From assembly GCF_021533215.1 (NCBI RefSeq), contig NZ_JAJNKA010000014.1, positions 1 to 64,000 on the forward strand: a stretch of 64,000 bases of DNA. The letters run 5' to 3'. Under the pieces are notes generated by a model. The model had not been told where the DNA came from and did not search any database. It saw only the letters and a list, made by a program, of their open reading frames with translations. This document shows, one piece after another, positions 31,403-59,892 of this stretch; position 1 is the first letter of the stretch, and the number at the start of each line of letters is the position of its first letter. The position numbers and the translations under genes were made by a program. The stretch is from Portibacter lacus (GTDB lineage Bacteria > Bacteroidota > Bacteroidia > Chitinophagales > Saprospiraceae).

Positions 31403-31431
31403 GGACCTCGTGCTTCAGCGCGAGACTTCCT
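31403..31431. repeat. 29-bp hairpin repeat, copy 2
   Basis: Second exact copy, 146 bp from the first. Its last two bases fall in the stop codon of the LytTR regulator gene. Possibly a REP-like element or part of the 3' end of that transcript. Confidence 0.75.
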
Positions 31432-32182
31432 ACCGTAATCCAGATTTAAGCAATGCCTCAAATGCTGACTTCTTACCTTGTGACACCCCAATTTTATCCC
31501 CATTTTTCATCACAATATATCCTCCTTGATTCTTTTCATACTTCTTTATAAAATTCAAATTGACTAAATGAGACTGGTGACAACGAAAAAAACCATGCCC
31601 TTGTAAAAGCTCTTGAACATGTTTCAATGGTTTCGAAATAATAATTTTCGATTCTCCATCAAGAAATATAGTCGCATAATTACTATTAGCCTCACACCTA
31701 ACAATCTCAGAAATTTCTGCAAATACATATCCTGTCTGCGTCGGCAAAGTGATTTTAGTAAAAATCGTATTAGGAGCATTGATTTTGCTGTGTATCTCAG
31801 AAAGCATTCGTTTCTCCCACACTCTTTTCTGATGGGCAACTCTATCTACTGCAGAGCTCAACTCATCCTTATCTATAGGCTTAAGCAAATAATCTACCGC
31901 ATAATATCGAAATGCTTTTAATGCATAATGATCATAAGCTGTTGTAAATATGATCTGAAAATCTATCGATTCTAATCTGTCTAATAATTGAAAGGCATTA
32001 AGGCCCGGCATTTCTATATCTAAGAAAACAATATCTACATCAAATGCTGGTAATTTCACCAAAGCAATTTCAGGATCATTGTACATGGCTAAAATGTGAA
32101 CAGTATCAGATAGTCTATTCAATTCATACTGTAGCACTTCCGTACAATTTAATTCATCATCTATAATTATCGCATTTAACAT
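31430..32182 (-). CDS. LytTR response regulator
   Basis: 250 aa. The receiver domain (1-115) has acidic DDE at 8-10, the phospho-acceptor Asp in VFLDIEMPG, the TTAYD Thr and the KPI Lys. The LytTR DNA-binding domain (about 145-248) shows VRCEANSNYATIFLDGE and FFRCHQSHLVNLNFIKKYEK. It is encoded 3 nt after the LytS-like sensor kinase gene, so the two form a system. Target genes are not identifiable here. Confidence 0.92.
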   Translation of the reverse strand: MLNAIIIDDELNCTEVLQYELNRLSDTVHILAMYNDPEIALVKLPAFDVDIVFLDIEMPGLNAFQLLDRLESIDFQIIFTTAYDHYALKAFRYYAVDYLLKPIDKDELSSAVDRVAHQKRVWEKRMLSEIHSKINAPNTIFTKITLPTQTGYVFAEISEIVRCEANSNYATIFLDGESKIIISKPLKHVQELLQGHGFFRCHQSHLVNLNFIKKYEKNQGGYIVMKNGDKIGVSQGKKSAFEALLKSGLR

Positions 32183-32185
32183 AAG

Positions 32186-34336
32186 TTAGTTTATTTCAGG
32201 AAGAAAAACAGTGACCCTTGTTCCCATCGGTTGATCTTGTGAATCCACCAAATCTTCTATTTCAGCAGTAGCTTTTATATGGTACAACGCATTAATACTA
32301 TGAATTCGGTCTTCCGTTATTTTCATCCCTAGGGATTCCCGAGTACTTCCCTTGTGCTTTCTAGCGTCTATCGCGGATTTCCTCCCTACCCCATTATCTG
32401 TAATGATACATTTTACATGTTGATCAAGTGCGAGGAAATCGATTTGCAGATTGCATTTCCCCTTTTTATTCAATAACCCGTGCCATATCGCATTCTCGAT
32501 GTATGGCTGCAGTAACATCGGCGCTACTTTAAAATTACTAAGATCGATTTCTGGGTCAATGTTAAATTCATAATCAAATTGGAAATTAAACCGCATTTGT
32601 TCCATCTCTACATACAACTTCAATGTTTCTATCTCTTGCTCCAAACTCAAAATATCCTTCCTCGAATTCTCCAATATTTTCCTCATCAATAAAGAGAATC
32701 TGGTAATATAATCAGCAGCCTCATCAGGTCCTTTATTCACTACATAATTCTTAATTGAATTTAGAGAATTAAATAAAAAGTGTGGATTCATTTGCGAGCG
32801 TAGAGCATTCAACTGCAAGCCTAATAATTGGTTTTCAAAATCTTCCTTATCCTTCTTACGCTTCCTAATTTGCCAGTAAAAACAAAAGCCTATGATCCCT
32901 AAACCAGCAAGACCCAAAGTTCGAAAAAACCATGACTCATAAAAATAAGGTGCGATCCGGAAGGTGAGGATCCTCGATTCGATTGCCATATCAGCGGAAA
33001 TTGCTTTTGCAAAAACCTCGTACTGACCTGCAGTGAGTTGGTCAAGTGCTACCTTTCGACTTTCATCTAACTTAACCCACTTTTCTTTGTTATTCAAAGC
33101 GTAATAATACTGAAAGGAATCAGCCGGATTAGGGTAATTTAGATTTACCAGAAAATCAAGTGCTCTTTCATAATTTTTTAAATTTTCATCGAAAGTTTGT
33201 TGGTGCACTCCATTCACCGCTAAATGCTTACTTTCTAATTTCAACGCTCGATTGCTTGGAACCAATGGCATCTTGCTTTTCATCAGTTTTTTAGTCCCAT
33301 TAATGCTGATCAAGTAACCGTTAGCATCAAGACCCGACTTGCTATAGTGATTTTCTTGTAAATCCGAATCGAAACGAGTCTCTAAAATGCCCAGTTCACT
33401 TTGTTCATTCTCAATAATCTCCGGCGGGTAATTTAAGTAGATAATTAAGGCGTATTCATTATTTATGGCTAACACATTTCGAATATACCTTTCATTCCCA
33501 GGTAGTATATTCCTCCATGTTTTATCAACTTTATTAAAAGAATAAACTTCCTTATGTAAAGAATGCAGCAGTACTTCATTCCCTAACATTTGCATCGAAT
33601 ATCCTCTTTCTGAATTATTAAAAAACCTACTATCATATGGGCCCTCTATTTGCTCCGCTTTTCGCTCTTTCTTATGATATTTAAACAACCCACTCCTTGT
33701 CAACAACCACAAAATATCCTGATCTACATTATCAGGCTCTATACGAAAGACGTGGGTCGAATATGCTCTATTGTCTCTAAAACTCTCCATCAGCAAACTA
33801 TCCACGACTTCTACTTCGTCCAGCAATTTATCGTAAACCAATACTCCTTTCTTAGTTGCTATCAATAGATTTTCTGCGTCTAAATCTGCAATATCGAAGA
33901 ATGCAACGTCATATATATCTGACCGAGAACTCGAATATTTATTCAATTTTGAAACAAATATATTTTTCTGAGGATCATACACTTGAACGCCATAAGATGC
34001 TGCAATCCACAAAGTGCTATCCGGTGATACATGTGTATTAAAAACCCGATTATTAACCAATGAGTGAGGATCATTGGGATCATTCACATATAGATTAAAT
34101 TGATAACCATCAAATTTGAAAAGGCCGCGTAGGGAAGAAAACCAAAGATTTCCATCGACATCATTATCAACAGCGGTTACATACTGAAAAACCGGTGCAT
34201 TTTCAGTTGGAAACCATTCCATATCTAATTTTTCAGGAATTTGGGAGAAGCCAATATTAAGAATGAAAGATAGAAGTAAAATGGAAAGGGTGTTTCTCCA
34301 ACTACAATCTAATTTAAATATGTATTTTGATGTCAA
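32186..34336 (-). CDS. LytS-type sensor histidine kinase with propeller-like N-terminus
   Basis: 716 aa. A signal peptide (about residues 12-31) precedes a periplasmic sensor with two-component-propeller blades (DGNLWFSSLRGLFKFDGYQF; DSTLWIAASYGVQVYD) and a Y_Y_Y-like sandwich ending near 455. One membrane helix (about 470-488) leads to the kinase: LRSQMNPHFLFNSLNSIKNYV with the phospho-accepting His near residue 515, then IENAIWHGLLNKKGK and ITDNGVGR for ATP binding. No in-frame ATG exists upstream of the signal peptide; the TTG at 34334-34336 is the likely start. The sensor is shorter than in hybrid polysaccharide sensors. Cognate regulator follows. Confidence 0.87.
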   Translation of the reverse strand: MTSKYIFKLDCSWRNTLSILLLSFILNIGFSQIPEKLDMEWFPTENAPVFQYVTAVDNDVDGNLWFSSLRGLFKFDGYQFNLYVNDPNDPHSLVNNRVFNTHVSPDSTLWIAASYGVQVYDPQKNIFVSKLNKYSSSRSDIYDVAFFDIADLDAENLLIATKKGVLVYDKLLDEVEVVDSLLMESFRDNRAYSTHVFRIEPDNVDQDILWLLTRSGLFKYHKKERKAEQIEGPYDSRFFNNSERGYSMQMLGNEVLLHSLHKEVYSFNKVDKTWRNILPGNERYIRNVLAINNEYALIIYLNYPPEIIENEQSELGILETRFDSDLQENHYSKSGLDANGYLISINGTKKLMKSKMPLVPSNRALKLESKHLAVNGVHQQTFDENLKNYERALDFLVNLNYPNPADSFQYYYALNNKEKWVKLDESRKVALDQLTAGQYEVFAKAISADMAIESRILTFRIAPYFYESWFFRTLGLAGLGIIGFCFYWQIRKRKKDKEDFENQLLGLQLNALRSQMNPHFLFNSLNSIKNYVVNKGPDEAADYITRFSLLMRKILENSRKDILSLEQEIETLKLYVEMEQMRFNFQFDYEFNIDPEIDLSNFKVAPMLLQPYIENAIWHGLLNKKGKCNLQIDFLALDQHVKCIITDNGVGRKSAIDARKHKGSTRESLGMKITEDRIHSINALYHIKATAEIEDLVDSQDQPMGTRVTVFLPEIN

Positions 34337-52531: not shown

Positions 52532-54169
52532 ATGAAAACATCACAAATAATTTTAAAACATACCTCTGGCTCAAGAGCTAATCAAAATGAATCATTCGAT
52601 TATAACTCAACTAAAGAAATAAAGATAGGGCGAGCAGACGATGCCCAATTAAAATTTGCTAATGATGAAGAAGGCGGTGTAAGCAGAAATCATGCAGTCA
52701 TTAGCAAAGGAAGTACAGACGGACAATTTTTCATAGAAGACCTTAACAGTCTTAACGGGGTTATTGTCAATGGAGTTAAGATAAGCGGTAAGCAAGAAAT
52801 CTTTGTTGATGACATCATTCAACTGGGTTTCAAGGGTCCTAAATTTGTATTTGATCTAAATCCCAGACCTGTATATCAGAAAGCAACAGAATTGATGTCC
52901 GTTCCAGCAGCCACAGAAGCCTATGAAGTTGCTCCTGCTCACGAACCAGTTCAAAAAGTAGGGATCGGTAAAGAAACTTTCGAAAGAGCCATCACTACTG
53001 AAAGAAAGAAATCAACAAAAACACTGGTTAATTCCATGGTCGTATTAGTATGTTTATGTGCTATTCTTGGGTTCACATTTAAGGATAAAATATTCAAGAC
53101 TGAACACACAACTACCACTAATATTATAGAAAAAGAAGAGTGGAGGCCTGATGTCATCGCAGCTAATAATATGGACAAGGTTATGTTCATAGAATTAGGT
53201 TACAACTTAATACATACGGGAACTTCTGATATGGTTTATCACCAATATATGCAGATAGAGGACCCGAAAACAAAACAAGTTTCAACAGTTGCAGTCTACA
53301 TACAGAATAATCAGGGAGAGTTAGAACCACTTCTAGGACTTAAGAAAAATACTCCAATAGGCGCCCCTATTGCTCAAGCAGGAATTTCAGGTTCAGGTTT
53401 TGTGGTAGATGAAGATGGATTCATTATGACGAATAAGCATGTAGCAGCACCTTGGACGTCAACTTATACTTTCCCACAAGAAGCTCAGACTGGGATGTTA
53501 ATCGAATTCGTGGACAATGAATGGCAACTTACCAGAGAAGTTCGAGCGCCACAAAGATGGATTCCTGCTAACACTACTTTCTTTGGTCGCAAGCCAGTGA
53601 GTGGTAAATTATTAACCGGAGAACATTCATATCTAGACGTCACGTTTGCAAAGTCTGAGCAGAGAACCCCTGCTAAGATATCTAGAGTCAGTGAAGTACA
53701 TGATGTGGCATTACTAAAAGTAGACATGATCGGTGATCTAGAAAAAGTCCTTCTACCTTCGTCAAGTGAAGAATTAGTCTTAGGCCAAAAGGTAGCAGTT
53801 ATGGGATACCCAGGACTTTCGCCGAATGGGGTTATTGTTTCTCAGTCTGATAATCCGATGTATGAAAACAGAGTATCGATGGTTCCTGATCCAACATTAA
53901 CAGATGGTTTAGTTAGTAAGGTTATCAGAAATGCAGATAATGCAAGCTTAGATTCTAAAGACTATTACAGCTTCTATGGAGAACATTATCAACTTAACAT
54001 TTCTGAAACAGGTGCTGGAAATAGTGGTGGACCAGTATTTAACAAAGATGGCCAAGTCGTAGGTATCTTCTCTTCGATGATGATGGATTACCAAGGCACC
54101 AAAATCACCTTTGCAATTCCGATCAAATACGGGCTCGAATTAATGGGTAATCGCAAAGTCATTAAATAA
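52532..54169 (+). CDS. FHA domain-transmembrane-trypsin-like protease fusion
   Basis: 545 aa. The N-terminal FHA domain (about 28-110) keeps phospho-Thr-binding residues: Arg34 in IGRA, Ser51-Arg52-x-His54 in VSRNHAVI, and Asn75 in LNSLNGVIVNG. One membrane helix (about 166-183) follows. The periplasmic part is a trypsin/HtrA-like protease with His303 (TNKHVAAPW), Asp391 (VHDVALL) and Ser498 (GAGNSGGP). There is no PDZ domain. The FHA would read kinase-made phospho-Thr in the cytoplasm and pass the signal to the external protease. First gene of the PP2C-kinase operon. Confidence 0.87.
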   Translation: MKTSQIILKHTSGSRANQNESFDYNSTKEIKIGRADDAQLKFANDEEGGVSRNHAVISKGSTDGQFFIEDLNSLNGVIVNGVKISGKQEIFVDDIIQLGFKGPKFVFDLNPRPVYQKATELMSVPAATEAYEVAPAHEPVQKVGIGKETFERAITTERKKSTKTLVNSMVVLVCLCAILGFTFKDKIFKTEHTTTTNIIEKEEWRPDVIAANNMDKVMFIELGYNLIHTGTSDMVYHQYMQIEDPKTKQVSTVAVYIQNNQGELEPLLGLKKNTPIGAPIAQAGISGSGFVVDEDGFIMTNKHVAAPWTSTYTFPQEAQTGMLIEFVDNEWQLTREVRAPQRWIPANTTFFGRKPVSGKLLTGEHSYLDVTFAKSEQRTPAKISRVSEVHDVALLKVDMIGDLEKVLLPSSSEELVLGQKVAVMGYPGLSPNGVIVSQSDNPMYENRVSMVPDPTLTDGLVSKVIRNADNASLDSKDYYSFYGEHYQLNISETGAGNSGGPVFNKDGQVVGIFSSMMMDYQGTKITFAIPIKYGLELMGNRKVIK

Positions 54170-54192
54170 TATACTTCATCAAATCATCTATT

Positions 54193-55044
54193 ATGATCTT
54201 CTCATTCTTTCGGAAAAACAACACTCATAACGCCCAAAACACCAATTGTAATCCAGTATCATATTCGGCTGTCGCTTCTTCAGACGTTGGATCAGTTAGA
54301 GAAAACAATGAGGATAAAGTGCTCTTTATCAAACCCTACGACAAAGATGTGCTACAGCAAAAAGGGATGTTAGGAATTGTTGCCGATGGAATGGGTGGTC
54401 ATAATTGCGGAGAGATCGCATCGCAGATTGCTGTAGATGTAATTTCTAAGCAATACTATCAATCGAAATTAGAAATATTAGAAGCGCTAGAAATGTCCTT
54501 TATTTCCGCTAATCAGAAGATATTTAAGAAAGCTGCTAAGAATGAAAATCAAAAAGGTATGGGAACAACATGCACTGCTGTAGTCCTTCACCAAAGGGAT
54601 TTATACCTCGCACATGCAGGTGATAGCCGAGCATATTTAGTCAATAAAAATAGTGTGAAAAAACTTTCTACAGATCATACTTACGTGCAATTCCTTCTTG
54701 ATAACGGTGTTATCAATGAATCCCAAATGAGTAATCATCCAGAAAGAAATGTAATCACAAAATCCATGGGCACTCAGAAAACTCTTATTCCAGATATTTT
54801 AAAATTTGAAAATATCCTTCATGAAGACGATCTCATTTTTCTATGCTCTGACGGTTTATATGAATACATCAAAGAACCTGAAATCCAAGAATATGTACTC
54901 AATAACTCCATTTTTGATGCAGCTGAACAAATGATTCAAGTAGCTAAAACCAGAGGCGGTCATGATAACATAAGTGTTCTAATCATAAAGCAATCAGCAC
55001 CTGAAAACGAAAATTTATTAAGCGTAACTCAAGAAATGAAATAG
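54193..55044 (+). CDS. PP2C-type serine/threonine phosphatase
   Basis: 283 aa, cytosolic. The PPM metal and catalytic motifs are complete: SDVGSVRENNEDK (about 30), VADGMGGHNCGE (about 64), HAGDSRAY (about 140), CSDGLYEYI and GGHDNISV near the end. It should dephosphorylate targets of the kinase encoded 2 bp downstream, as in Stp/PknB-type pairs. Starts 23 bp after the FHA-protease gene. Confidence 0.93.
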   Translation: MIFSFFRKNNTHNAQNTNCNPVSYSAVASSDVGSVRENNEDKVLFIKPYDKDVLQQKGMLGIVADGMGGHNCGEIASQIAVDVISKQYYQSKLEILEALEMSFISANQKIFKKAAKNENQKGMGTTCTAVVLHQRDLYLAHAGDSRAYLVNKNSVKKLSTDHTYVQFLLDNGVINESQMSNHPERNVITKSMGTQKTLIPDILKFENILHEDDLIFLCSDGLYEYIKEPEIQEYVLNNSIFDAAEQMIQVAKTRGGHDNISVLIIKQSAPENENLLSVTQEMK

Positions 55045-55046
55045 TC

Positions 55047-56846
55047 ATGATTGGCAGTAGAATAGCAAATTTTCAAATTGTAGAAGAACTTGGATCAGGC
55101 GGAATGGGAACGGTGTATAAAGCTCGTGATATTAATCTGAAGAGATTCGTAGCCGTGAAAGTTCTAAATCAAAACCTCTTAAAAAAGGATAACAATTACA
55201 AGCGATTCAAAAATGAGGCAGAAATATCTGCTCAGATGAATCACCCTAATGTAGCCACGCTCTTTAATTTTATAGAAGCAGATAATAAAGCCTACATTAT
55301 CATGGAATATGTAGATGGAAAGACACTGGAAGCTTTACTAGATGAAAAAGGTGCACTTAATAAAAAACAATGCGTGGATATCACCATCCAGATTTTAAAA
55401 GGACTTTCAGCTGCACACCGCTTAAACATCCTTCATCGAGACTTGAAGCCTGCTAACATCATGATCGACAAACATGGCTTTGTAAAAATTATGGACTTCG
55501 GCATAGCGCTAATGGAGAATACGACTAGGCTAACTACTCAAAATAAGGTCATCGGAACCATAGAATACATGGCGCCAGAATTATTCTCAGGATCTTTACC
55601 GACCACCGGCTCTGATCTCTATGCAGTAGGCATTATGTTATTCGAAATGTTAACTGGTAAATCATTGTTTCAGGCAGATAGTGAAGCATCATTAATGTAT
55701 CAAATCCTGCATAACAACCCAAAAATAGACCTCAAGCCAGCTAAGAAAAGTCTTGAATCTGTCGTGAGTAAACTAGTCCACAAGAATATTAAAAAACGTT
55801 ATGAACACACAAGTGATGTAATTATTGACCTAGAAAAAAAGCTAGCAAAAGACCCAGTGGTTAGCCCTATTAAACTTCCAGATCTTAACCCTGTATTTCT
55901 CAGAATAAAAAACAAGCTTAGATCTAAAACTAACTTCCTCAAATTAGATAACGTTGTTAAAATATCTAATAATCCTGCTCCCAAATTTGACTTATTCAAA
56001 TTTGTAAACAAACGTCTACTCATCGCTTGTCTTCTTCTTAGTACAGTGATCATTTTAATTGCTTCCTTTTCTAAACCAAAACCTTCTAAACAAATCTCTA
56101 AATTAGAAGTGGATTCAGGAGTGTCGCTTTACCCAAATAATAGTGTACAACAGAATATCTATGAACCTGAACCAATCGTGTATTTAGATCCTGATCCTTC
56201 TCATAAGAATGACTTAGAAATTGAAAAAAACAATCTTTCCCCGAGTAAATCTAAAAAAACAAAAGATTCAGAATTAGAGACCAAAAAAGTGGTCACAGAA
56301 TCTGTAGAACCAGTAAAGAAACCAACAAATTCCCCAGACGCCGATAAACAGCCTGAAGAAGAAATCAAAAGAACTACAGTTCCAGCAACACCAGAAATAG
56401 AAGAAAAAACTGAAAAGCTTAGTCCTCCAGAACCTTCACCTTCCCAACCTAAAGAAAGAGTTGAAAAAAGCAAAACAGAATCCGTTTCAGTTATGCTCCG
56501 TGAGCAAAAAATCAGCTTACTTTTTAATCAGTCTATCAGCAGTAAATCTTCAGAACTCGGTCAGATCTGTATGCTACAAACGAATGAAAATATCATTATC
56601 GATGGTCATATTGTCATTGCTAAAAATGCACCTGTTAAAGCTGTGGTGAGAAAGAAGAGAGCTGGTAATAATGGGAAGGTAAAATTCGGAATTGTATTCA
56701 AGGAAGTCCAAGCCGTTAATGGCAAATGGATCACACTTAAATATCCAGAATATACAGACATTCAGAAAGATGAAGTCATCTTCGAAAAAGGCAGGATCGT
56801 TAATAATGTCACGGTCCAATCATCGAGACTAAACATAAATATTTAA
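55047..56846 (+). CDS. Transmembrane Hanks-type Ser/Thr protein kinase
   Basis: 599 aa. The kinase domain (8-265) is complete: GSGGMGTVY loop, catalytic Lys38, His-Arg-Asp132 in HRDLKPAN with Asn137, and DFG at 150. A membrane helix (about 323-341) follows, then a Pro/Lys/Glu-rich linker (about 345-475). The external C-terminal domain (480-599, with LGQICMLQTNENIIIDGHIV and LNINI end) resembles a 'VxxDGxVVIAKxAPV' beta-domain found in other envelope proteins rather than PASTA repeats. Overlaps the phosphatase spacing by 2 bp, so the pair is coupled. Likely partner of the FHA-protease. Confidence 0.9.
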   Translation: MIGSRIANFQIVEELGSGGMGTVYKARDINLKRFVAVKVLNQNLLKKDNNYKRFKNEAEISAQMNHPNVATLFNFIEADNKAYIIMEYVDGKTLEALLDEKGALNKKQCVDITIQILKGLSAAHRLNILHRDLKPANIMIDKHGFVKIMDFGIALMENTTRLTTQNKVIGTIEYMAPELFSGSLPTTGSDLYAVGIMLFEMLTGKSLFQADSEASLMYQILHNNPKIDLKPAKKSLESVVSKLVHKNIKKRYEHTSDVIIDLEKKLAKDPVVSPIKLPDLNPVFLRIKNKLRSKTNFLKLDNVVKISNNPAPKFDLFKFVNKRLLIACLLLSTVIILIASFSKPKPSKQISKLEVDSGVSLYPNNSVQQNIYEPEPIVYLDPDPSHKNDLEIEKNNLSPSKSKKTKDSELETKKVVTESVEPVKKPTNSPDADKQPEEEIKRTTVPATPEIEEKTEKLSPPEPSPSQPKERVEKSKTESVSVMLREQKISLLFNQSISSKSSELGQICMLQTNENIIIDGHIVIAKNAPVKAVVRKKRAGNNGKVKFGIVFKEVQAVNGKWITLKYPEYTDIQKDEVIFEKGRIVNNVTVQSSRLNINI

Positions 56847-56855
56847 ATATAAAAC

Positions 56856-57476
56856 ATGAAATCAGCATTTTACATATTATTATTTATTACAATATCTATT
56901 AATCTGCAAGCCCAAGATGTAAGGTCTAGTGTTTCTGGCTTTTCAGCAGAACTTGACCTTTCCTATGGTGAATGGCATACTTCTAGCTTTTTCCTTGGGA
57001 ACTTAGCAGAATTGGAGCCAATCGGAGGTGGATTACAATTTAAAATCGGATATGGATTTCGAGAGCGGATCGAAGTTTTTGCAGCTTACACCACTATGAA
57101 TTACAATATTAGTGATGAATGGGATCGCTTTATTAATAACAACATTAAAGTAGGAGCTAGACTACATTTTGGAGCGACGTTGAAACGAATGAGACCTTAT
57201 ATTGAGGTAGGCATTACCAATAATAAATTTTTAATGGATCCGATTTATATAGATATAGAAGGTCCTTATGAATTAGACCTAAGCGGAATAGGAATTGCTC
57301 CAGGAGGTGGCATCAATTACTTTATTACTCCAAATTTGGCTGCTCATTTGAATATCGCATTTGCTTTTGGTAATTTCAGTAGTGCAGAAATTTCAGGCCA
57401 GAGAAATGAATTTGATGAAAATCTAGATTATACATTTTTTAATGTCGGCCTAGGAATGTCTTACTTTTTACAATAA
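56856..57476 (+). CDS. Small outer-membrane beta-barrel protein
   Basis: 206 aa. A signal peptide (to about residue 20, ...LQAQ) is followed by alternating hydrophobic strands with Gly and aromatic residues, for example GGGLQFKIGYGFRERIEVFAAY and the final FFNVGLGMSYFLQ, an eight-strand opacity/OmpX-like barrel. It lies 9 bp after the kinase and 9 bp before the response regulator, inside the signalling operon. It could be a sensor or target at the outer membrane. Confidence 0.75.
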   Translation: MKSAFYILLFITISINLQAQDVRSSVSGFSAELDLSYGEWHTSSFFLGNLAELEPIGGGLQFKIGYGFRERIEVFAAYTTMNYNISDEWDRFINNNIKVGARLHFGATLKRMRPYIEVGITNNKFLMDPIYIDIEGPYELDLSGIGIAPGGGINYFITPNLAAHLNIAFAFGNFSSAEISGQRNEFDENLDYTFFNVGLGMSYFLQ

Positions 57477-57485
57477 ATTTGAACC

Positions 57486-58130
57486 ATGCCCATAAGAATA
57501 TTTCTAGTAGATGATCATAAAATAATTTTAGATAGCCTCAGTATGTTGCTAGGCATGATCGAGAATTTTGAAATTGTCGGAACATGTTATGATTCCAGAC
57601 TTGTCATCGATGAAATCAAAGAATTAAAAATCGATGTATTGATCACGGATCTTTCCATGCCTTCCTTAGACGGAATTCAGCTCAGCTTCAAGTTGAAAGA
57701 AGCCTATCCCGATCTTAAAATACTTATGCTCACTGTAAATGACGATACCTCACTCATCGTCGATGCGTTTCAAGCAGGAATTTCTGGATATGTTATGAAG
57801 AAGGCTGGCCGTGCGGAGATGGAAAAGGCCATACGGACTGTGAATGATGGAGATCTTTATTACAGCCAAGAAGTAATGCGCGTCATTTTAGCTGGAAAAG
57901 GAGTTGATTTAGAAGTAGAACAAATCAAATTATTAACAAAGCGTGAAATCCAAATCATCAAATTAATGCTGCAAGAGAAGTCATCTGCTGAAATTGCTGA
58001 TGAGCTCTTCATTTCTCCAGGAACAGTAGAAACTCACCGACATAATATTTATAAAAAGCTAGAAGTGAGGAGTGTTGTAGGTCTAGTAAAATTTGGAATC
58101 AAACACAATCTGCACATTGATGAACATTAA
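57486..58130 (+). CDS. NarL/FixJ-type response regulator
   Basis: 214 aa. Receiver (1-120) has DD at 9-10, phospho-Asp55 (LITDLSMP), Thr83 and Lys105. The LuxR-type helix-turn-helix (about 145-205) reads LTKREIQIIKLMLQEKSSAEIADELFIS and VETHRHNIYKKL. It overlaps the histidine kinase gene by 11 nt, so the two are coupled. It connects two-component signalling to the Ser/Thr phosphorylation genes upstream. Confidence 0.93.
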   Translation: MPIRIFLVDDHKIILDSLSMLLGMIENFEIVGTCYDSRLVIDEIKELKIDVLITDLSMPSLDGIQLSFKLKEAYPDLKILMLTVNDDTSLIVDAFQAGISGYVMKKAGRAEMEKAIRTVNDGDLYYSQEVMRVILAGKGVDLEVEQIKLLTKREIQIIKLMLQEKSSAEIADELFISPGTVETHRHNIYKKLEVRSVVGLVKFGIKHNLHIDEH

Positions 58131-59892
58131 ATTGACAATCTTTTTCTTGTTATTCACTTTCATGGTCAATGGGCAGTTGAGTTTGCAAGATTCCTTATTT
58201 TTAAAGAAGGTAGAAAAACATTTGCCTATTATCAGAAACGGCAATTTTTTATCACAAAAGTACCTGGATACTTTAATCGAAATTCAAAGTAATAGTTCTT
58301 CAGAATTTAAAGAAGGCCTTGTGCAGCAAATTCAAGGAACTTACTGGCAAAGTAAAGGAGATCACGAGAAAACGCTGTGGCACTTTAGCAAAGCGGAACA
58401 GATATTAGGTCAATGTTGTCCATTGACGAATGAATATATAAATTCAGTTATTGGTTCTGGTTTCGCTCTTTCAAGCGCAGGATTAATAAATTATGATACC
58501 ACCTATTTTATAAAAGGATCTAATAAAATTAGAAAGGGTTATCGCCAATCTAAAAAACTAGGCAATCGATACAATGAGTTAATGTGTCTTGATTTTATCG
58601 GTGATTACAACTACTATTCAGCTTATCAAGTAGAAAATATGGATAGTGCTCTATATTACTACACCTTACTTGAAAAGGAGTTAGGTCCAGGTCCTGATTC
58701 TAGTTACCGGTTCGTAGAAAGTAAACACAATATGGCCAATGTCTACAGAAGACTAGGTGAAGATGAACTTTCAGAAAAGTACTTTAATGAGTCTATTGAA
58801 TTGTCCAGTAAATACGGCTATAACGATATCCTTTTTGCCATTTTGGGTGATAAAGCAGAGGTCTTAGAAGAAGACGGCAAACATAAAGAGACACTTGAGC
58901 TTAGATTAAAGTCTTACAATTATGTACTAAAAACGAACGATCCAGAGTATATCAATAGAATAGATCGACAGTTATACCGGAGTTATAAAAACTTGAACAA
59001 TCCTGAAAAAGCACTAGAATATCTTGAGAAATATAATCAAGGTATCCAGAATATGAATAAGAGTGGTGCTCTTAAACTCCAGGCAGAATTAGAGAAACAA
59101 TTAGAAATAGATCAACAAGAACTTGAAATTGCAAGACTTGAAAATAAAAATCTAGGGATCACTAGAAACTATCTAATCCTCTTAGCTGGATTATCCTTGT
59201 TGATCATGGGATTCATGTATTGGGCCTACAGACGATTAAGAAAGAGTAATATAAAATTGACCCAGAAAAACAAAGAGATTCTAATGGCGCAGATGAAGGG
59301 ACAGAATATAGAGAGAAAGAGAATGGCTGGTGAATTGCATGATAACTTGAATACAAAAATAGCAGCTGTACGTTACAGACTAGAAGCTCAAGCTCTTGCC
59401 GCGGTAGACCAAAATAAAAAAATGTTCGATGAGACACTCGCATTGGTTAATGATATTTATGAAGATGTCCGGTTAATTTCGCATAATCTGATGCCTGAAA
59501 CAGTAGAAGAAATCGGATTACTTCCTTCTTTACAGAAATTAATCCATACGCTAAATGATAATGATCATACTAAATTCCACCTTGTTTCCAGTATCGAAAA
59601 AGAGAAAGATCTAGAGGCTTATTCCTATCAACTCTATAATATAATCTTCGAAATGATTAACAATATTCTTAAGCATTCTAAAGCAAAGAATGCTTGGATC
59701 AGTCTATCGCAATTGGATTCAAAAGTGAATGTTACCGTAAGTGATGATGGACAAGGGTTCGATGTTAATGAAAACATGGGTGGCTTCGGTCTTAAGAGTA
59801 TCAATTCCAGAGTAGAACAACTCAATGGACATTATACAATTCAGAGCAATCCCGGCGAAGGCACTAAATATATGATAGAGATTCCTATCTAG
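58120..59892 (+). CDS. TPR-containing histidine kinase (NarX/DesK type)
   Basis: 590 aa from the ATG at 58120-58122. An upstream frame exists, but the signal peptide (MNIKLTIFFLLFTFMVNGQ) begins here. TPR repeats fill about 75-310; a coiled coil leads to a membrane helix (about 345-365). The HisKA_3 domain has AGELHDNLNTKIAAVRYR with His407, and the ATPase domain shows NNILKHSKAKN, SDDGQGF and GGFGLKSINSRVEQL. It senses in the periplasm and phosphorylates the NarL-type regulator. Last gene of the signalling operon. Confidence 0.92.
   Translation: MNIKLTIFFLLFTFMVNGQLSLQDSLFLKKVEKHLPIIRNGNFLSQKYLDTLIEIQSNSSSEFKEGLVQQIQGTYWQSKGDHEKTLWHFSKAEQILGQCCPLTNEYINSVIGSGFALSSAGLINYDTTYFIKGSNKIRKGYRQSKKLGNRYNELMCLDFIGDYNYYSAYQVENMDSALYYYTLLEKELGPGPDSSYRFVESKHNMANVYRRLGEDELSEKYFNESIELSSKYGYNDILFAILGDKAEVLEEDGKHKETLELRLKSYNYVLKTNDPEYINRIDRQLYRSYKNLNNPEKALEYLEKYNQGIQNMNKSGALKLQAELEKQLEIDQQELEIARLENKNLGITRNYLILLAGLSLLIMGFMYWAYRRLRKSNIKLTQKNKEILMAQMKGQNIERKRMAGELHDNLNTKIAAVRYRLEAQALAAVDQNKKMFDETLALVNDIYEDVRLISHNLMPETVEEIGLLPSLQKLIHTLNDNDHTKFHLVSSIEKEKDLEAYSYQLYNIIFEMINNILKHSKAKNAWISLSQLDSKVNVTVSDDGQGFDVNENMGGFGLKSINSRVEQLNGHYTIQSNPGEGTKYMIEIPI

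Follow-up and report, generated by a model that had tools for sequence, protein, structure and literature searches.

The operon described here occupies positions 52532-59892 of a 64,000-nucleotide stretch of the Portibacter lacus genome (contig NZ_JAJNKA010000014.1, positions 1 to 64,000; hereafter the window). It encodes, in this order, an FHA domain fused across a membrane segment to a trypsin-like protease, a PP2C phosphatase, a Hanks-type Ser/Thr kinase, an outer-membrane beta-barrel, a response regulator and a histidine kinase. We tentatively propose that these products form a self-contained relay of threonine phosphorylation that spans the envelope and acts through a periplasmic protease anchored in the membrane; we hold this reading to be possible rather than probable. 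The module is observed and its mechanism is what we infer: the proposal is built on the gene content, the intact catalytic and phosphothreonine-binding residues, the synteny, the uniqueness of the genes within the genome and the predicted VirB10-like fold of the kinase ectodomain. Each part is of a known kind and the novelty lies in the wiring, the phosphothreonine reader being joined through the membrane to a protease and the kinase bearing a VirB10-like ectodomain.

The six open reading frames are intact and all run in one direction (+), with intergenic spacings of 23, 2, 9 and 9 bp followed by an 11-bp overlap; for the histidine kinase the ATG at 58120 is the preferred start, the TTG at 58093 given by the reading-frame caller being less likely. 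The Pfam matches are clear for the FHA-protease (FHA 5e-14, Trypsin_2 8e-21), the phosphatase (PP2C 4e-19), the kinase (Pkinase 2e-60), the barrel (OMP_b-brl 5e-7) and the response regulator (Response_reg 6e-25, GerE 7e-19), and HisKA_3, HATPase_c and TPR are all matched in the histidine kinase. Reading frames, spacing and domains thus agree with the original prediction, which had claimed six packed genes with gaps of 2-23 bp and an overlap. The operon is preceded by a gap of 211 bp, a scan found no terminator-like site on the + strand inside it, and the six genes are likely to form one transcript; a sigma-70 promoter scan was uninformative and a search for Bacteroidota-type promoters returned counts at chance level. 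The flanking genes are of a housekeeping kind (YidC, glycerol-3-phosphate dehydrogenase, ChrA, a Na/Pi cotransporter, DASS, an esterase, a CCA-type polymerase and Dus), no tRNA or Rfam family was found in the window, and the operon had no match in 50,697 phage and 72,556 plasmid records. Close packing of genes is slight evidence when taken alone, and the case for a real unit is made by the synteny together with the genome-wide uniqueness. In the 6.3-Mb genome, FHA (PF00498), Pkinase (PF00069) and PP2C (PF00481) have one match each, all within the operon, so that kinase, antagonist and reader form one optional package in this genome and the partnering of the kinase with the reader is nearly forced. 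Pkinase is without a match in two congeneric genomes, one of which does contain an FHA match, but a different one.

The order FHA-protease, optional second kinase, PP2C and kinase is kept in all 15 testable loci, the window included; a further locus (L023), cut off by the end of its contig, was left out. Relatives of the FHA-protease were found in 11 other genomes of roughly 650 searched, and also in Spirosoma panaciterrae, Winogradskyella ursingii, a Gemmatimonadaceae bin and Xanthobacter oligotrophicus. A single-sequence scan of named genomes detected no relatives; the alignment-based scan of these genomes gave 80 matches, mostly to the protease part only, the full-length ones being those at L026, L027, L028 and L062. 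The core therefore ranges over several Bacteroidota families, Gemmatimonadota and Alphaproteobacteria, and synteny beyond the strain, which had been named beforehand as a test, is thus borne out. A barrel gene lies 3' of the kinase in 11 of the 15 loci, one other locus (L027) running off its contig. In five loci a second, shorter Hanks kinase stands between the FHA-protease and PP2C (L016:10926-12125, L019:8059-8979, L024:4450-5622, L026:11778-12992 and L027:4554-5900).

Some variations around the core were also seen. One genome in addition to the 11 (G473) matches only across the FHA domain, and its locus (L020:6189-9487) encodes a stand-alone 136-aa FHA protein, a PP2C and a 660-aa kinase, arranged as in the core but lacking the protease; it may be a reduced version of the core or an ancestral one. 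A patatin-like phospholipase gene lies beside the FHA-protease and divergent from it in two genera of the window's family (L023:1956-2969 and L024:7623-8645), as judged by a Pfam Patatin match of 8e-22 in L024 and a GGGIRG motif shared by L023. Within one genus, an extra Hanks kinase is convergent with the core (L015:1780-4125 and L017:1223-3559), the L015 copy being a Pkinase-TPR protein.

The first gene (52532..54169, + strand) encodes a protein of 545 aa composed of an FHA domain (residues 30-99), a variable linker, a transmembrane segment at about 165-183, which is the single hydrophobic segment, and an HtrA/DegS-like protease domain with the triad H303/D391/S498. From this arrangement the FHA domain is predicted to be cytosolic and the protease domain periplasmic. 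In an alignment of relatives, the FHA residues that contact phosphothreonine (GR33-34, SR51-52, H54, NG75-76 and N80) and the three triad residues are invariant or nearly so. The assignment of both domains agrees with structure comparisons, since the FHA domain has a profile match to GarA structures and the protease domain matches HtrA1 and DegS structures, with a trypsin-like fold and a His-Asp-Ser triad. No PDZ domain was found by Pfam scan, and the protein scores far under the curated cut-offs for DegP (59 of 416 bits) and DegS (32.5 of 423 bits). A cytosolic FHA domain with its phosphothreonine-binding residues, one transmembrane segment and an intact triad would suit a protease controlled by FHA across the membrane. 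The linker is variable in sequence and modelled with a predicted local distance difference test score (pLDDT) of about 25-40, and over residues 114-165 the only invariant columns in 15 sequences are T119, G146, K147 and T149. Both threonines are thus kept in 15 of 15 sequences, those of Xanthobacter and Gemmatimonadaceae included, and may be regarded as putative phosphosites. FHA domains select on the residue at +3, and the +3 position of T119 is aliphatic or Met in 14 of the 15 sequences, a pattern in line with that selectivity. A further Thr occurs some 9-13 residues past T119 in every sequence.

The kinase (55047..56846, + strand; 599 aa), as assigned by Pfam, alignment and the model of its ectodomain, comprises a kinase domain (9-253), a transmembrane segment at about 324-342, a stalk at about 345-475 and a C-terminal domain at about 478-599. 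Its catalytic residues are invariant among relatives, and the activation loop has an invariant Thr163 and a nearly invariant Thr171. The segment 324-342 is its single hydrophobic stretch, from which the kinase domain is predicted to lie in the cytosol and the C-terminus in the periplasm; beyond the membrane come about 130 residues rich in Pro, Glu and Lys, and then a conserved domain some 120 residues long. The antagonist is a cytosolic PP2C-type Ser/Thr phosphatase (54193..55044, + strand; 283 aa), an Stp1/IreP equivalog by NF033484 (243.8 bits against a cut-off of 230 bits).

The conserved ectodomain of the kinase was not placed by Pfam and PDB sequence searches. An AlphaFold model built from three sequences (132 residues, 56448..56843, + strand; pLDDT 86) identifies it, at the level of predicted structure, as a small beta-barrel like those of VirB10, ComB10 and CagY. 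In the fold search the best 13 rows were all VirB10-family chains, including those of X. citri, R388 TrwE, H. pylori CagY and ComB10, and Legionella Dot/Icm, with Z-scores of 6.8-9.7 against 4.1 for the next row, and Foldseek gave the same assignment (best E 2.9e-3). Sequence similarity is faint: Pfam TrbI gives a match in 1 of 13 cases (E 0.0019), and hhalign against Bacteroidota TrbI proteins gives a co-linear alignment with a score of 26.4, where none of 100 column shuffles exceeded 20.1, but the match is weak, with a probability of 14%. The domain is shorter than VirB10 C-terminal domains and apparently lacks the antenna, and no VirB9- or VirB7-type gene of a type IV secretion system (T4SS) was found among the flanking proteins scanned. 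Its profile also matches apparently secreted, mostly short proteins with no operon-type kinase adjoining (L136:6183-6881, L137:6552-7049, L138:4498-5085 and L139:5359-6627), and an orphan Hanks kinase in another genome (L135:9412-11082, G356) carries a VirB10-like ectodomain with no FHA-protease, PP2C or barrel adjoining. Such occurrences away from the operon point to a general envelope domain and give no sign of type IV secretion.

The outer-membrane beta-barrel protein (56856..57476, + strand; 206 aa, OMP_b-brl) carries a signal peptide. Among 40 relatives searched, barrel copies at E<=1e-40 occur only in core-bearing genomes, and a single weak match (E 7e-7) is located elsewhere. The covariation of the parts was evaluated over the ten loci having all of them, as partial rank correlations of pairwise distances with the other four parts controlled. 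Within-protein pairs served as positive controls (FHA-protease 0.51, kinase-ectodomain 0.49), and the highest between-protein values were those of ectodomain and barrel (r 0.44, p 0.019) and of FHA and kinase (r 0.37, p 0.012). This pattern is suggestive: contact of the ectodomain with the barrel, and of the FHA domain with the kinase, would be expected to give it.

The last two genes encode a NarL/LuxR-type response regulator (57486..58130, + strand; 214 aa), with a receiver and a LuxR-type helix-turn-helix by Pfam, and a histidine kinase (58120..59892, + strand; 590 aa) in which Pfam and hydrophobicity indicate an N-terminal signal, a periplasmic TPR region, a transmembrane segment at about 345-363 and HisKA_3 and HATPase_c domains. 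The pair is thus of the NarL/HisKA_3 type. It adjoins the core in the window and in L021, L022 and L025, and is missing from most loci. Of 12 other genomes searched, 4 have a response regulator with over 50% identity to that of the window, always on the contig of the core: it adjoins the core in G538, G633 and G134, and in G323 the relative lies about 10 kb off, beside two TPR histidine kinases. The next best paralogs in these four genomes reach at most 42% identity. Since close relatives of the regulator are found only near the core, the pair looks like a co-inherited, lineage-specific add-on, neither a chance neighbour nor a component of the general core. The view of the six genes as one system therefore stands for the window's family and does not extend to a general core. 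Elsewhere in the window, the region 31430-34336 holds a protein whose start (31430-32182) resembles a receiver; it lies 3 bp from a large upstream gene and is possibly part of another two-component pair.

Taken as a relay, the module could operate as follows. The outer-membrane barrel and the VirB10-like ectodomain, held on its long Pro/Glu-rich periplasmic stalk, would constitute the sensor, and an envelope change perceived there would alter the activity of the cytosolic kinase. The kinase would then phosphorylate conserved threonines in the cytosolic linker of the FHA-protease, and the FHA domain could bind the phosphorylated linker in cis or between neighbouring protease molecules, or bind phosphothreonine on the kinase. 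Such contacts may cluster or tether the protease and thereby switch its HtrA-like periplasmic domain. The PP2C, judging from its family, would strip the phosphates and reset the relay, and in this lineage the TPR histidine kinase and NarL-type regulator may add a transcriptional branch.

Several observations weigh against this proposal. The relay is predicted from sequence and structure models, and the AlphaFold model of the FHA-protease is mediocre (pLDDT 64). The enrichment of Thr in the invariant linker columns is modest (binomial p 0.046), and the register of the third linker Thr (T128) depends on the alignment. The covariation comprises 15 pairs over the ten loci with no correction for multiple testing, and fails Bonferroni. 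The sensor half is not universal, since the barrel is missing in L018, L062 and L028 and Sel1 repeats replace the VirB10-like domain in the Xanthobacter kinase; moreover, a VirB10-like fold alone does not imply that the domain reaches the outer membrane. The broader hypothesis of a phylum-crossing trans-envelope class, in which a VirB10-type Hanks kinase would dock the barrel and the sole detected FHA domain would let cytosolic Thr phosphorylation switch periplasmic proteolysis directly, appears to us somewhat unlikely.

The chief rival to the relay is one of recruitment and shedding, in which the FHA domain would bind phosphothreonine of the autophosphorylated kinase, in its activation loop or juxtamembrane region, and the protease would cut the kinase stalk as a feedback terminator, other substrates not being targeted. 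The covariation of FHA and kinase distances and the conservation of the two activation-loop threonines favour it, and the long, Lys/Glu/Pro-rich and probably unstructured stalk is a plausible protease substrate; however, protease and ectodomain show no covariation (partial r 0.00) and the invariant threonines of the FHA-protease linker are left unexplained. We hold it to be an unlikely reading, though hardly a far-fetched one. It can also be supposed that the genes form a loose co-transcribed set, in which the kinase, phosphatase and FHA trio acts on many cytosolic targets, and the remaining functions (barrel, protease, two-component pair) serve the envelope, sharing expression with the trio but having no direct link to it. 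Adjacency indeed does not show a common pathway, and the absence of the two-component pair from most loci is what such a set would give; but the FHA domain is covalently part of the protease, the gene order is fixed across phyla, the genome has no other FHA match as reader, and the ectodomain covaries with the barrel. We judge this reading to be about as unlikely as the preceding one.

Very unlikely in our view is phage defence akin to KKP or to other kinase-based systems, in which infection would free the kinase from PP2C and the protease would damage the envelope. The K-P-K order of the five loci with a second kinase and the patchy distribution would suit it, as would the scores of the kinase domain with the PADLOC PD-T4-6 models, although these kinase models are expected to match many Hanks kinases. 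In addition, the FHA domain is fused to the protease rather than to a kinase, no cold-shock domain is present, the operon has no match in the phage and plasmid records, its neighbours are housekeeping genes, and neither an outer-membrane barrel nor a transcriptional two-component pair suits a role in defence. In KKP itself, the FHA domain is fused to the kinase PfkB, a cold-shock domain is on PfkA, a PP2C completes the set, and over 90% of known cases lie in prophages or mobile elements (PMC11341870). The present operon resembles it in joining Hanks kinase, PP2C and FHA, with two kinases at some homologous loci; it differs in that the window's genome has one Pkinase, with neither FHA nor cold-shock domain on it.

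The closest parallel to the proposed relay is the Thr-phosphorylation pathway of the type VI secretion system (T6SS), in which TagQ and TagR act upstream of PpkA, PpkA phosphorylates Fha1 and PppA reverses this (PMC10482370), and in A. tumefaciens Fha binds phosphothreonine of TssL (PMC3953482). Both encode together a membrane Hanks kinase, a PP2C antagonist and an FHA reader, and outer-membrane or periplasmic sensors with a post-translational output would likewise apply here. In the T6SS pathway the FHA reader is itself a Thr substrate, for which the linker threonines are here only candidate sites. The differences are that no T6SS genes lie in the flanks, that FHA sits on a membrane-anchored protease, that the kinase ectodomain is VirB10-like and that a predicted integral barrel takes the place of TagQ. 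The actinobacterial GarA and OdhI are soluble metabolic regulators in which a kinase-target Thr in a flexible flank can be bound by the protein's own FHA domain; candidate threonines in a flexible flank are a common feature, whereas here the FHA domain is carried by a transmembrane protease. With DegS and HtrA the FHA-protease shares the anchoring in the inner membrane and a periplasmic trypsin-fold domain with an HtrA-type active site, and it departs from them by its lack of PDZ, its scores below the DegS and DegP cut-offs and its additional cytosolic FHA domain. The kinase shares with VirB10, TrbI and ComB10 a transmembrane segment, a Pro-rich periplasmic stalk and a small C-terminal barrel of the same predicted fold, and is unlike them in its N-terminal protein kinase, its shorter domain, its very weak sequence similarity and the absence of T4SS genes nearby. 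In the parts of the eLife 2020 survey of NTP-dependent conflict systems (PMC7159879) that deal with them, trypsin-like peptidases and FHA domains are treated in other settings and not as this set. A description of the FHA-protease, PP2C, kinase and barrel set was not found in the open-licence literature, to which the search was confined. The original prediction had named no described system of this kind either, and it included neither the VirB10-like ectodomain of the kinase nor the conserved threonines of the linker.

What a bacterial Hanks kinase senses and what it phosphorylates are as a rule difficult to identify, since several kinases and several FHA proteins coexist in many genomes. In the present genome the single kinase, phosphatase and FHA matches lie in one operon, which leaves little freedom in the wiring and opens it to direct tests. 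If the proposal is true, cytosolic Thr phosphorylation would govern proteolysis on the far side of the inner membrane, and a VirB10-like domain would serve as the sensor of a kinase outside secretion systems.

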